This document shows positions 28,179 to 36,978 of a stretch of DNA of 64,000 nt, one piece after another. Made by a program: the position numbers and the translations under genes. Source of the DNA: Salmonirosea aquatica. GTDB lineage: Bacteria > Bacteroidota > Bacteroidia > Cytophagales > Spirosomataceae. The DNA is taken from the NCBI RefSeq assembly GCF_009296315.1, contig NZ_WHLY01000002.1:4996501-5060500 (forward strand), in the 5' to 3' direction. A model generated the notes under the pieces. It was not told where the DNA came from. It saw only the letters and a list, made by a program, of their open reading frames with translations, and made no database searches. Position 1 is the first letter of the stretch. Every line of letters starts with the position of its first letter.

Positions 28179-28916
28179 ATGAACGTCGGACTTTTCATAC
28201 CGTGCTACGTCAACCAGTTTTACCCCCAAGCCGCGCGGGCGACGCTGGAATTGCTTCGGAAAATGGGCGTTAACGTGAGGTACCCTACCAAACAAATTTG
28301 CTGCGGGCAACCCATGGCCAACTCGGGGTTTGAGCATCTGGCGCAGGATTGCAACAATACCTTCATCGAAAACTTTGCGGCGTTCGACTACATCGTCGGG
28401 CCGTCGGCCAGTTGTATTCTGCACCTGAAAGACCATCTTCATTCGGATACGCAGGAGGCGATAGCCACCGAAATTCGGGGAAAAGTATACGAGTTGGTCG
28501 AGTTTCTGACCGATGTATTGAAAATCGAATCACTCGACGCCGCGTTTCCCCACAAGGTAGGGCTACACCACAGCTGCCATGGCTTGCGCGGATTGCGCTT
28601 GGCCCAAATGAGCGAACTCAACGCGCCCGATTTCTCCAAACCCCAGCAGTTACTGGCCATGGTAAAAGGGCTGGAACAGGTACCTCTTGATCGCTGTGAC
28701 GAGTGTTGCGGATTTGGCGGCGTTTTCTGCGTGTCGGAAGAAGCCGTGTCCGTGAAAATGGGGAAAGACCGGGTGGCGGACCATACCCGCAACGGGGCCG
28801 AGTACATCACCTCGTCCGACTTGTCCTGCCTCATGCACCTGGAAGGTATCCTGCACCGGAAAAACAGCGCGGTCAAGGTCATTCATATTTCAGAAATACT
28901 CAATGCAACGCTATGA
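28179..28916 (+). CDS. lutA: LutA, CCG-domain Fe-S subunit of L-lactate oxidation
   Basis: 245 residues, cytosolic. Two CCG cysteine-rich domains: PCYVNQFYP...ICCGQPMANSG and HHSCHGLRGL...CDECCGFGGVF. LutA, LutB and LutC together oxidise L-lactate to pyruvate in many aerobes. The stop overlaps the lutB start (ATGA), showing translational coupling. LctP is directly upstream. Length matches the family (about 240). Confidence 0.93.
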   Translation: MNVGLFIPCYVNQFYPQAARATLELLRKMGVNVRYPTKQICCGQPMANSGFEHLAQDCNNTFIENFAAFDYIVGPSASCILHLKDHLHSDTQEAIATEIRGKVYELVEFLTDVLKIESLDAAFPHKVGLHHSCHGLRGLRLAQMSELNAPDFSKPQQLLAMVKGLEQVPLDRCDECCGFGGVFCVSEEAVSVKMGKDRVADHTRNGAEYITSSDLSCLMHLEGILHRKNSAVKVIHISEILNATL

Positions 28917-30289
28917 GCCAACCTAAAACAAAAGATCACGCGGCCCTGGCCGAGGCCTTCATCCAGGACGAAGAGCGGGTGGACTGGCACGACGGGGCGC
29001 TTTGGTACATCCGGGCCAAACGCGACATCGCCTCCAAATCCATCCCCGAGTGGGAGGAATTGCGAGAAGCCGCCTCGCAGATCAAAAGCAATGTCATCTC
29101 CAACCTGCATGGGTACCTTTTGCAGTTTGAAGCCAATCTGAAAAAAAACGGTATCACGGTGCATTGGGCCGATACCCCTGAAGAGCACAACGAAATCGTG
29201 TACGCCATTTTGAAAGCGAAGGAGATCGATCAGATGGTGAAAAGTAAGTCCATGCTCACCGAAGAGTGCGGCCTGAATGAGTACCTCGAAGCGCGGGGCA
29301 TCGGCGTCATCAATTCCGATCTGGGCGAGTACATCCAGCAGATCGACAACGAGCCGCCCAGCCATATCGTGCTGCCGTGCATCCATAAACGCAAGGAAGA
29401 AATCGGTGAACTGTTTCATGAGCACCTGGGTACCGAAAAAGGATTGTCGGACCCAACGCAGCTGACGCGGGTAGCCCGCAAGCACCTGCGCAATGTGTTC
29501 ATGACCCGCCGCGCCGCGCTGACGGGCGTCAACTTTGCCGTAGCCGAAACGGGCGAATACGTGGTGTGTACCAACGAGGGCAACGCCGACATGGGCGCGC
29601 ACTTATCTGAAGTACAGATTGCCTCCATGGGTCTGGAAAAGATCATCCCGCAGAAAAAGCACCTGGGTATTTTTCTGCGCCTGCTGGCCCGGAGCGCCAC
29701 TGGACAACCCATTACTATCTATTCGAGTCACTACAAAAAGCCGCGCGAAGGGCAGGAAATGCACCTGATTTTGGTCAACGCGGGCCGGACGCGGCAGCTG
29801 GGGCGGAAGGATTTTCAAAATTCCCTGAAATGCATCAAGTGCGGAGCCTGCATGAATACCTGTCCGGTGTACCGCAAAAGCGGCGGACTGAGCTACCACA
29901 ATACCATTTCCGGGCCAATTGGCGCGATTCTGGCTCCCAATCTGGATATGAAAAAACACGCGGACCTACCCTTCGCCTCCACGCTCTGCGGGTCGTGCTC
30001 CAACGTGTGTCCAGTTAAAATCAACATCCACGATCAGCTGTACAAGTGGCGGCAGGAGATTGTGAAAGAGGGTCACGCTTCGAGTACCAAGGCGCTGGGC
30101 ATGAAGGCTATGGCCTGGACGTTGTCTTCGCCCGAAAAATTAGACAAAGCCGGTCGGGCCGGGAGGTGGTTTATGCATAAGGTACCCTTCGTCGTCAATA
30201 ACAAGCTCAATCCCTGGTACAAGCAGCGCGACATGCCGGAAGGTCCCAAAGAGTCTTTCAGTGAATGGTACCTTAAAAACGAAAAGTAG
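28913..30289 (+). CDS. lutB: LutB, iron-sulfur subunit of L-lactate oxidation
   Basis: 458 residues from ATG at 28913. An N-terminal LUD-like domain (ITGVNFAVAETG, here ALTGVNFAVAETGEYVVCTN) is followed by two [4Fe-4S] motifs: CIKCGACMNTCPVYRKSGG and CGSCSNVCPVKINI. A longer frame opening at 28703 overlaps lutA out of frame and is rejected. It is coupled to lutA. The operon is then interrupted by about 670 bases with structured repeats before lutC. Confidence 0.93.
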   Translation: MSQPKTKDHAALAEAFIQDEERVDWHDGALWYIRAKRDIASKSIPEWEELREAASQIKSNVISNLHGYLLQFEANLKKNGITVHWADTPEEHNEIVYAILKAKEIDQMVKSKSMLTEECGLNEYLEARGIGVINSDLGEYIQQIDNEPPSHIVLPCIHKRKEEIGELFHEHLGTEKGLSDPTQLTRVARKHLRNVFMTRRAALTGVNFAVAETGEYVVCTNEGNADMGAHLSEVQIASMGLEKIIPQKKHLGIFLRLLARSATGQPITIYSSHYKKPREGQEMHLILVNAGRTRQLGRKDFQNSLKCIKCGACMNTCPVYRKSGGLSYHNTISGPIGAILAPNLDMKKHADLPFASTLCGSCSNVCPVKINIHDQLYKWRQEIVKEGHASSTKALGMKAMAWTLSSPEKLDKAGRAGRWFMHKVPFVVNNKLNPWYKQRDMPEGPKESFSEWYLKNEK

Positions 30290-30390
30290 ATTGTTGGGTT
30301 CTAGTAACTCGCTCATACCAGTGATCTGGTCGAAGGTAGTACTTATTATGCTTTTGCCAATTATTCAATGTTCTGGGCAAAGCTGGCTTT
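30290..30390. other. Start of the 670-base lutB-lutC interval
   Basis: The whole interval 30290-30959 has no plausible gene; the small frames there are reading through the repeats. It consists of the two inverted repeat copies (30391-30519, 30675-30801), a 155-base spacer between them and AT-rich flanks. Typical lutB-lutC spacing is a few bases, so this is an insertion or expansion. Confidence 0.6.
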
Positions 30391-30519
30391 TGCCCTCCTG
30401 GGGCGGGCGGCCCCAATTCCATTGCGGCCGCTTTCTCAACGCCTTTGGATATCAATGGCCCTGCGCATGCCTGCCGCACACTGGCCATTGATATCAGGTC
30501 GGCTTATGAGAGAGCTGAG
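30391..30519 (+). repeat. Structured inverted repeat, left copy
   Basis: About 129 bases, repeated in inverted orientation at 30675-30801. The conserved part includes TGCCCTCCTGGGGCGGGC (with a TGGGGC/GCCCCA stem) and GCGGCCGCTTTCTCAACGCC. A second hairpin follows with 13-base arms, GATATCAATGGCC (30448-30460) and GGCCATTGATATC (30483-30495), then GGTCGGCTTATGAGA. Confidence 0.75.
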
Positions 30520-30674
30520 AAATGGGGCGTCATGCAATAAAAGGTTTATTCACTTTCAAAAATGGTGAAATGAACGGGTCAAAATAATAATGAGCTACTT
30601 GTAAAGGTAAATTCAAGAATCGAACCATATATTTTGAAAACATTCAAAGCAATACAGTAAAATGCAAATCAATT

Positions 30675-30801
30675 TCAGCCTTCTCATAAACCGACCCTAT
30701 AAAAATGGCATTTGTGCGCTTGGATTGCGCAGGCCATTTTTATACAGAGGCGTTGAGAAAGCGGCCGCAATGGAATTGGGGCTGCCCGCCCCAGGAGGGC
30801 A
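30675..30801 (-). repeat. Structured inverted repeat, right copy
   Basis: Same element as 30391-30519 on the other strand. Here the second hairpin has different 12-base arms, TATAAAAATGGC (30698-30709) and GCCATTTTTATA (30733-30744), so pairing is kept although the sequence of the stem changed on both sides. The flanking conserved blocks match the left copy closely. Confidence 0.75.
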
Positions 30802-30959
30802 AGCGTTGGCACGAGCCGATAAATCAGCATAAAATACAGAAAGACAGAGAATCGCCCCGGCCCCAGGTGCCGCAAACATAGGTGCATTTCGATATAGTTT
30901 TATGCTAATTATTTTTTCAATAAATAGATTTACGAACAACCAGTAACCAATCACCACCC

Positions 30960-31544
30960 ATGACAAGCCGGGAGAAAATATTGGGAGAAGTTTTACAAAA
31001 CCAACCCGCTTCGCTGCCGCTGCCGGACATTGCCCGATTCCGGGGCAAAGAACAGGAAGTAGTTCAAAGGTACCAAGCCGTTTTTGAAAGTATTGGGGGT
31101 ACCGTGTACCGGGTAGATGATTTCGCCGCCATCCAGGCGATCATCCACGAGCGCTACGACACCGAAAAACGCATCGCCACCACGCTGCCGGAACTGACCG
31201 AAGGCTTTGAATGGATTGTCCCGAACGCAGACCCCCATACGTACGAAGATATCGAACTGGCGATCATCCGCGGACATTTTGCGGTCGCCGAAAACGGGGC
31301 CGTGTGGCTGTCGGACGAAGTCATGGGCCAGCGCATCATCCCCTACATCTGCCAGCACCTGGCCGTCGTGGTACGCGCCGATAGCATCGTACCTACCCTG
31401 CACGAAGCCTATGAGATCATCGGTGAAGGTACCTACGGCTTCGGCGGCTTCATCGGCGGCCCCTCTAAAACCGCCGACATCGAACAGGCCCTCGTCCTCG
31501 GCGCCCACGGGCCGTTGTCGATGGCGGTTTTTCTTTTGAGCTAG
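30960..31544 (+). CDS. lutC: LutC, LUD-domain subunit of L-lactate oxidation
   Basis: 194 residues, cytosolic. LUD domain (formerly DUF162) with GGTVYRVDDFAAIQAI, ADPHTYEDIELAIIRGHFAV, AENGAVWLSDE and TYGFGGFIGGPSKTADIEQA; the last block is the family end signature (x-G-P-S-x-T-A-D-I-E). Length is typical. It is separated from lutB by 670 bases of repeats and may need its own promoter. No clear -7 box was identified in the AT-rich DNA just upstream. Confidence 0.92.
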   Translation: MTSREKILGEVLQNQPASLPLPDIARFRGKEQEVVQRYQAVFESIGGTVYRVDDFAAIQAIIHERYDTEKRIATTLPELTEGFEWIVPNADPHTYEDIELAIIRGHFAVAENGAVWLSDEVMGQRIIPYICQHLAVVVRADSIVPTLHEAYEIIGEGTYGFGGFIGGPSKTADIEQALVLGAHGPLSMAVFLLS

Positions 31545-35948: not shown

Positions 35949-36411
35949 CAAAGCATTGTTCCTGATTTTGGTTAATGACTTGTTAAAGAATGTAAACGAT
36001 ATGTAAAAGTTGTCTGAGACAAAGCGGAAAGGCAGGATTCAGACTTGAAATGGCTGGTTATTACTACGGTTATCCTTGCCGAGTCGCGTTTGCTTTATAA
36101 AGCAGTTGTAGAAAGGGAGTTGTTACATCAAAGATTTAGTTTTTAACGATCTGATCCAAAGACTATTACCTGATACTAAAAGTTGCACGGAGTAGAGGTA
36201 TCTTTTGAGAAGGAGGCTTAGTTTACTGGGAAGGGATGGCGAATACTAACTTTTTAACAGGTGCCAGCTTCTCGGAGTTGTGCGTGGTCTTCCATCGAAT
36301 GACTGCGTACTGAAAATAGCTGGCCGCCGGTAGGCCGGCCCCGTTGTAACGGCCTCGAAGACAAACGCCACAAATTTAGTAAATTTACTACTCAGCCTTA
36401 CCGAACAAAAC
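35949..36411. other. Intergenic DNA with REP-like copy A
   Basis: No gene. Contains the upstream part of the duplicated promoter, REP-like copy A (36277-36310, reverse orientation), a G/C-rich stretch at about 36320-36355 and TAGTAAATTTACTA at about 36379-36392 just before the transposase remnant. Confidence 0.5.
36277..36310 (-). repeat. REP-like repeat, copy A
   Basis: Reverse orientation of GTACGCAGTC...TCGATGGAAGACCACGCACAAC. Related to copies B, C and D at 37038, 37162 and 38875. It lies on the left of the RAYT remnant and is inverted relative to copy B on the right. Confidence 0.6.
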
Positions 36412-36978
36412 CATGCCCTTCGCCCGTCGCATCCAAAATCCCGAAGACCTGTACTTCGTGACCTTCGCTACCGTACAATGGCGGGGTCGCCCGTGCGGTG
36501 GATGTCTTCACGCGTCCGGTTTATGTGGATATTATATTTGAGAGTATCCGATACTGCCAGAAAAGGTCTACGAATCCATGCCTGGTGCTATATGTCTAAA
36601 CATGTGAATCTAATGATTTCAACGGAGTTTGGCCATCATCCTTCCGATGCGTTACGGGATTTGAAAAAGATTACTTCCAGGAAAATCATAGCCGCTATTG
36701 CAGATAAGGAGCAGCCCGAAAGTCGGCGTGGCTGGATGTTGTGGATTTTTCGACAAGCTGGGGAGGCAAATTCTAAGAATAAAGAATACCAATTTTGGCA
36801 GCAGGAAAATTATCTGATTGAACTCATCAGCAATAAGTTTATTGACCAGAAGCTGGATTATATGCACATGAATCCAGTGAAGGTGGGGCTGGTAGACGAG
36901 CCTTGGGAGTACCGCTGCTCCTCGCCGCGGGATTATATGAATGATCAGAAGGGATTATTGGACGTGGAGTTGATTTGA
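36412..36978 (+). pseudogene. REP-associated tyrosine transposase (RAYT), decayed
   Basis: A Y1 transposase-like gene in three frames: MPFARRIQNPEDLYFVTFAT in frame 1, VDVFTRPVYVDIIFESIRYC in frame 2, then GLRIHAWCYMSKHVNLMIST through QKLDYMHMNPVKVGLVDEPW in frame 3. The start block and the N-P-x-x-A/V-G-L-V-x-x-P-W-x-Y end are RAYT signatures. The catalytic HUH motif, normally HVH, reads HVN. With two frameshifts and a changed active site, it is dead. The frame breaks are not at homopolymers. REP-like copies flank it. Confidence 0.85.

Follow-up and report, generated by a model that had tools for sequence, protein, structure and literature searches.

A pseudoknotted inverted repeat between lutB and lutC of Salmonirosea aquatica belongs to a Cytophagales repeat family that may be mobile DNA

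What separates lutB from lutC in Salmonirosea aquatica? In the window (the whole stretch of 64,000 nucleotides that was analyzed), an L-lactate permease gene and a lutA-like gene lie upstream of lutB, and a malate synthase gene lies downstream of lutC. The lutC-like ORF is 670 nt past the lutB stop. This gap is conspicuous within the lut operon because lutA and lutB apparently overlap. An earlier reading of the letters of this DNA (the sequence-only reading) had proposed that an inverted pair of repeats splits lutB from lutC, and we confirmed both the sequences and the coordinates of the pair. We define the + orientation of the repeat as that in which the pseudoknot and GGCC hairpin come first. 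The copies were scored with two covariance models, R1 (built from 16 copies) and R2 (built from 83 copies). The P4 hairpins and the pseudoknots were assigned by eye via homology, P3 by inverted-repeat search and folding, and P1 by RNA folding. The features are as follows.

28179-28916: lutA-like gene, overlapped by lutB if lutB starts at 28913
28703-30289, + strand: lutB-like ORF (LUD and 4Fe-4S); the likely true start, judged from the sequence, is ATG 28913
30380-30528, + strand: copy A (model span); R1 122.3 bits, R2 89.9 bits
30392-30414, + strand: copy A pseudoknot region; predicted pairing of GCCC (30392-30395) with GGGC of the P4 loop (30405-30408)
30400-30404/30410-30414, + strand: copy A hairpin P4; these helices covary family-wide
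30430-30438 with partner 30507-30515, + strand: copy A outer stem P1; covaries family-wide
30448-30495, + strand: copy A variable stem P3 with its loop (30448-30460/30483-30495); 13 bp, 100% paired
30529-30664, no strand: linker between the copies; alignable to its counterpart in a homologous pair, which a Persicitalea MAG has at an unrelated locus
30665-30812, - strand: copy B (model span), inverted relative to copy A with the 3' ends face to face; R1 123.1 bits, R2 95.4 bits
30698-30744, - strand: copy B variable stem P3 with its loop (30698-30709/30733-30744); 12 bp, 100% paired
30778-30782/30788-30792 (within 30778-30800), - strand: copy B hairpin P4, predicted; covariation
30784-30787 with 30797-30800, - strand: copy B pseudoknot, predicted; covariation
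30960-31544, + strand: lutC-like ORF (LUD domain)

The inverted arms (30390-30460 and 30732-30802) are 71 nt long and 93% complementary, with 271 nt between them. A 20-mer from the arm occurs twice in the window, compared with 0.02 occurrences expected (allowing up to 3 mismatches). When folded as RNA, both copies were more stable than all 200 dinucleotide shuffles (z of -3.9 for copy A and -4.4 for copy B). When folded as DNA, the z scores were -4.0 for copy A and -2.3 for copy B, and 4 of the 200 shuffles of copy B were equally good. As had been noted before, the P3 stems differ between the two copies and the pairing is kept. The region does not appear to encode protein: none of the 7 short ORFs across the repeats had a credible Pfam match (best E 0.32). 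In both copies the pseudoknot hairpin is followed by 13 inserted nucleotides, AATTCCATTGCGG (30415-30427 and 30765-30777). Two Telluribacter copies (L152:3252 and L124:2875) have the same insert, which none of the other inspected copies showed.

The two copies between lutB and lutC are members of a larger family. Four copies were detected in the S. aquatica genome, the window pair and two singles. When the window dimer served as a blastn query, 3 of 59 genomes, its own among them, had relatives. R1 matched 8 of 222 genomes at the level of the taxonomic family and 9 of 390 at the level of the order. With R2, the search for further copies that the sequence-only reading had suggested detected the repeat in 35 of the 390 Cytophagales genomes sampled. 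In a sample of the phylum, R2 matched 4 of 395 genomes, all four within the Cytophagales, in a search of a size that loses weak matches. Deep searches of ten genomes gave 4 to 28 copies per genome (4, 14, 17, 16 and 19 with R1; 16, 6, 20, 28 and 9 with R2). Genomes with the element include the Persicitalea MAG (G012) and two Telluribacter genomes (G014 and G242), all from the Spirosomataceae, Cytophagales. One f19 genome has at least four same-strand copies in ~6 kb near a contig end (G281:C14:539896-546125; L276, L189).

We found no catalogued counterpart. The window had no match in Rfam at the gathering threshold, and the 3 sub-threshold matches obtained from 10 element loci at relaxed thresholds were all unrelated to the repeat. 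A distant blastn search of a plasmid collection found no match to the repeat, and neither did a search of viral contigs with one exact pattern. The same exact pattern matched genome contigs of the Persicitalea MAG and the two Telluribacter genomes. Pattern matches in Citrobacter, Thiomicrospira and Chromatium were dropped because by eye they look like coding sequence that matched by chance; of these, only that in Citrobacter reached E <= 1 (0.023, partial). A literature search, thin on subscription papers, found no title or abstract that describes the repeat.

The repeat unit is ~110-150 nt long. In the + orientation, a pseudoknotted GGCC hairpin (P4) is followed by the stacked stems P1, P2 and P3. 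A short 5' strand (GCCC, GTCC, CTCC, GCGC and others) pairs with the loop of the GGCC-loop-GGCC hairpin, forming an H-type pseudoknot. P3 is closed by a variable loop, and the repeat ends at its 3' side in a largely conserved CTG. Across genera and families, little change is seen in the GGCC hairpin, the 3' CTG and some letters of the loops.

We measured covariation in an alignment (A7) of 120 copies from 100 loci, which left out the G242 loci, L231, and parts of G431 and G483. Across 29 helix pairs, 91.0% of cells held standard pairs, compared with 36-47% when the partners were slid. There were 834 cells altered on both sides, compared with 274 in shuffles, and the covariation score was 0.569, compared with 0.169 for shuffled and 0.065-0.124 for slid partners. 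A weaker measure, the number of pairs with change on both sides, gave 26 of 29 (shuffled mean 22.4), a value that 2 of 500 shuffles attained. Fitting the alignment to the model biases the counts in the model's favor, and the pairs were chosen on the same alignment. Nevertheless, the effect is large enough that the structure (three stacked stems, the GGCC hairpin and the pseudoknot) is secure. The proposed covariation of the stems, for which the two window copies alone are thin evidence, is strong in 120 copies, and the further copies keep compensatory pairing. P1, P2, P4 and the pseudoknot covary too; that is, the variable P3 is merely the most visible part.

Two copies (L122:2235-2382 and L154:3054-3201) have ~16 extra nucleotides on the 3' side, inserted between P3 and P2. 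The insert is close to a reverse complement of the 5' hairpin (P4) region of the same copy; it could be a competitor for P4 or the trace of a template switch. At an orthologous Telluribacter locus (L122:8315-8448 and L123:8269-8417), the flanks and outer stem are similar but most of P3 differs, a pattern that conversion of the inner hairpin could have left.

Copies of the repeat are dispersed between unrelated genes. We compiled 153 copies (83 plus 73, less three duplicates), a set in which orthologous Telluribacter loci were both kept, so that the counts are not fully independent. The genes used in these counts are ORFs picked by codon score. Only 1 of the 153 copies overlapped a gene, and 5 more had no called gene on one side. 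Single units account for 115 of the copies. Among the 109 singles that could be classified, 70 were in co-directional, 27 in convergent and 12 in divergent gaps; the 259 background gaps at the same loci were 176 co-directional, 40 convergent and 43 divergent. Co-directional placement was thus no commoner than background. Convergent gaps were mildly enriched (p 0.04), and depletion from divergent gaps was not significant (p 0.20). In two genomes (G351 and G040) there was no consistent replication-strand bias of the sort that marks lagging-strand ssDNA elements (IS200/REP type): the two lean in opposite directions (p 0.036 and 0.077), with replichores drawn from 20 skew samples each. In genome G273 (L117, L118, L119), several copies lie amid SusCD/sulfatase and PSCyt/DUF1501-type operons, with more than one per operon (gene functions from ORF translations). 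Where same-strand copies in G273 and G040 are separated by 3.5-4.4 kb, the intervening genes appear ordinary from their ORF translations, and no transposase was noticed among them.

Paired copies are organized as inverted dimers. In the two Telluribacter genomes, all 12 adjacent opposite-strand pairs are tail to tail, and 11 of the 12 unite two outer-stem subtypes (by a simple motif call). We compared orthologous pair loci in both orientations. At 4 of the 5 scoreable loci the dimer was more similar when inverted relative to the flanks (85.0, 75.1, 84.7 and 82.2%, compared with 73.1, 71.1, 67.7 and 70.6% in the flank orientation). At the fifth, the flank orientation was better (82.0 vs 68.7%). 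A sixth locus (L153/L124) was unscoreable and is outside this count. That is, dimers have become inverted relative to their flanks, via recombination between the arms or otherwise.

We also looked for empty sites of four singles in G242 and G014. Two G242 copies were clearly absent from the orthologous region of G014, and a third single, a G014 copy, had unrelated sequence at the corresponding site in G242. No ortholog of the fourth was found in the other genome. At the two clear empty sites no target-site duplication was readable, the intergenic DNA being too diverged. The window dimer and the Persicitalea MAG dimer, which adjoin unrelated genes in two genera, align at 69% over a stretch that starts at the end of copy A and takes in the linker and copy B. 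In our reading the dimer has probably moved as a whole, although transfer and later rearrangement could also account for the alignment.

The sequence-only reading had likened the pair to an RNA element or transposon end. The structure stands, and of the two alternatives a mobile DNA element fits better than an RNA, because the copies have unrelated neighbors, occur as singles and inverted dimers, are absent at orthologous loci, have inverted relative to their flanks, and include a homologous dimer in two genera. We therefore consider a mobile DNA hairpin resembling REP/REPIN sequences more likely than a regulatory RNA. Specifically, the lutB-lutC pair would be one copy of an uncatalogued, non-autonomous, REP/REPIN-like DNA repeat family of the Cytophagales, a proposal with about an even chance of being right. 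The repeat would spread as a single-stranded DNA hairpin, either monomer or inverted dimer, recognized by its shape by a putative trans-acting nuclease or recombinase. Copying between the two arms may help to maintain complementarity, and the lutB-lutC copy would be an insertion tolerated by the operon.

It is possible, although doubtful, that the repeat functions instead as RNA in the intercistronic or 3' untranslated parts of mRNAs, on the strand opposite to +, for example as a pseudoknotted processing element or one that stabilizes 3' ends. The best evidence for this is orientation. Among co-directional singles, the + strand was antisense to the genes in 52 of 70 cases (p 6e-5), and one defined strand therefore tends to be in mRNA. 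This counts against our preferred explanation because a pure DNA element does not predict such a bias. The bias is driven by families f1 and f5 (30 of 35) and is weak in f12 and f19 (22 of 35, p 0.18). The covarying pseudoknot and the mild enrichment in convergent gaps would also be consistent with an RNA. In contrast, inverted dimers place one copy in each orientation, and neither the window nor the 10 element loci yielded an Rfam match to the repeat.

The letters of the stems also argue against RNA. G-U pairs made up 1.7% of 3329 cells when read on the + strand and 3.3% on the opposite (mRNA) strand, the cells not being independent. In cobalamin riboswitches of the same genomes (8 alignments counted, of 12 riboswitches found), G-U pairs made up 10.8% (44 of 407 cells); that is, they are 3 to 6 times rarer in the repeat. 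The raw counts favored the mRNA strand (110 vs 56), but the excess shrank to 53 vs 46 after repeats within a genome were merged, and to 15 vs 9 when merged by sequence context. The signal being weakened or gone, we dropped this wobble-pair strand test as evidence for RNA. In stems of GTAG REPs, GT pairs are frequent and taken as a sign of RNA function, according to the available text of PMC3733652, unlike the stems of the repeat, in which G-U is rare. The two lines of evidence conflict: orientation suggests that the transcribed strand matters and the letters suggest DNA. The orientation bias against transcription gives an RNA role some probability. The step from kept pairing to selection on RNA, however, does not hold as it had been put, because G-U pairs are far rarer than in the riboswitch control, there is no clear strand preference after merging, and copying between arms can maintain complementarity without selection.

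This last process could in principle be the main one. That is, the repeat may have spread once or rarely, with the pairing mostly a by-product of template switching (quasi-palindrome correction) and with little or no present function. We consider this unlikely. The excess of double changes (834 cells, compared with 56 G-U cells on the + strand) is what it would produce, although double changes with few wobble intermediates would fit Watson-Crick selection on a DNA hairpin as well as arm-to-arm copying. In the L122 and L154 copies, both from one Telluribacter genome, 19 and 4 of 500 shuffles were as good as the insert in matching the complement of the copy's own P4. Such an insert, which repeats part of the 5' hairpin in inverted form on the 3' side, hints weakly at copying between arms. 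A templated origin was supported in only these 2 of the 5 insert-bearing copies; the other 3 lack a P4 complement. In addition, templating alone does not explain the conserved GGCC hairpin, loop letters and 3' CTG.

A third explanation, which we regard as very improbable, is that a classical (DDE) insertion sequence gave rise to the pair as a MITE, with the inverted arms as its terminal inverted repeats. The dimers do consist of inverted arms that flank a short linker, measuring ~330-440 nt in total, and a homologous dimer is found at differing loci in two genera. MITEs such as NEMIS, ERIC and Nezha are short, non-coding, strongly folding elements that adjoin genes, as the available parts of PMC3733652 describe them, and in these respects the repeat is like them. 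They end in the terminal inverted repeats of insertion sequences, whereas each arm of the repeat is a complete folded unit and is often alone, most copies being singles and not paired ends. Moreover, each arm is a palindrome in itself and its stems vary greatly, no target-site duplication was seen in intergenic DNA that was too diverged to read, and no parent element was found at the fetched element loci.

The least probable explanation, to which we give almost no weight, is a cis-regulator (riboswitch, attenuator or operon switch) of lutC and other downstream genes; the pair does sit inside an otherwise tightly coupled lut operon and has three overlapping terminator-like sites within copy B on the lutC strand (4 in 30250-31000, 0.7 expected), but 18 of 20 scanned downstream genes (of 65 listed, from five genomes) had Pfam matches of many kinds, the distance from a copy to the next start ranged from overlap to 467 nt, and 27 of the 109 classified singles lie between convergent genes. 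The diversity of downstream genes and the unconstrained distance disfavor a riboswitch or regulon element, and the regulation of lutC that had been suggested is not supported: the scanned genes have no common theme. A polar effect of the pair on lutC would be possible, given the terminator-like sites in copy B. An intrinsic terminator is not a family trait, because, as judged by eye, a T tract is missing from the ends of the family on both strands, and this candidate was dropped.

If the repeat is a mobile DNA hairpin, as we prefer, what moves it? REP sequences are thought to be mobilized by RAYT (TnpAREP) enzymes. Matches to Y1_Tnp were present in all 8 element-bearing genomes that we searched, a set that has the genomes of f5, f12 and f19 outside it. 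No copy of the repeat (R1 and R2) was within ~1.5 kb of a Y1_Tnp gene at the 30 loci tested, of 34 in these genomes, and we rejected a RAYT as the engine on this basis. At the fetched element loci, the only RAYT relative encoded was in the window. It is a degenerate ORF (36478-36978, within feature 36334-36978) 5.7 kb from the repeat, scoring 22.7 bits against PF01797 (cut-off 23). It has a YMHMNP motif, and MSKHVNLM replaces NHxH (a damaged HUH motif), which makes it likely a decayed TnpAREP as far as its translation can tell. The hairpins downstream of this ORF are unrelated to the repeat.

The repeat can be compared with several known systems. REP, BIME and REPIN sequences are dispersed intergenic palindromes that occur as singles and inverted dimers, including heterodimers, with several subtypes per genome, in the available text of PMC3733652, PMC3116915 and PMC6006769. 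The repeat is like these described elements in being intergenic, in occurring as singles and inverted (hetero)dimers, in having several subtypes per genome, and in lying between co-directional and convergent genes. It differs in size and fold: a REP is 21-65 nt with one hairpin, whereas the repeat is ~110-150 nt with three stacked stems and a pseudoknot. Its stems, unlike those of REPs, differ strongly between copies within one genome. It also lacks the tag at the hairpin foot: in the 6 nt before the foot of P1, GT[AG]G was found in 0 of 120 copies (either strand) and CGTC in 1 of 120. Finally, unlike a REPtron, it was not found beside RAYT genes at the 30 tested loci (of 34, in 8 genomes).

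Other candidate counterparts are structures that adjoin TnpAREP genes of subclass 2.6 in Bacteroidetes. The available parts of PMC6006769 present these as atypical, without GT[AG]G and with copies elsewhere in the genome, and the repeat shares the phylum, the missing tag and the dispersed copies. The same text describes the subclass-2.6 structures as weakly folded, unlike the repeat. At 8 loci with subclass-2.6-like RAYT genes in element-bearing genomes we found other short palindromes and no copy of the repeat. There may also be a functional analogy outside the REP world. An integron attC site is a hairpin recognized by its shape, in which the stem letters vary freely and the boxes are RYYYAAC/GTTRRRY. 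The repeat is likewise a variable-stem hairpin, and its recognition by shape would be a further parallel; none of these boxes was seen in the repeat alignments (judged by eye).

Overall, the repeat works most like REP/REPIN sequences, but fails their tested defining features (foot tag, unit size and, at the loci tested, RAYT association) and adds a pseudoknot. The possibility that it forms a separate class is a serious one. We tentatively suggest, as something well short of an established conclusion, that the repeat represents a mobile DNA hairpin of a new class. It would be a single-stranded DNA with three stems and a pseudoknot, recognized by its shape and not its sequence. It would spread across the Cytophagales as monomers and invertible heterotypic dimers through an enzyme other than a known RAYT, and its arms would evolve in concert.

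The family has implications for the genomes that carry it and for how such repeats are found and interpreted. Covariance models revealed an order-wide family with no Rfam match where blastn had given three genomes. The family provides a test case for when perfect covariation means RNA function and when it reflects DNA hairpins or arm-to-arm copying, and a simple way to tell these apart is to compare G-U counts with those of riboswitches from the same genomes. For the bacteria themselves, dimers that flip relative to their flanks might alter the expression of adjacent genes.
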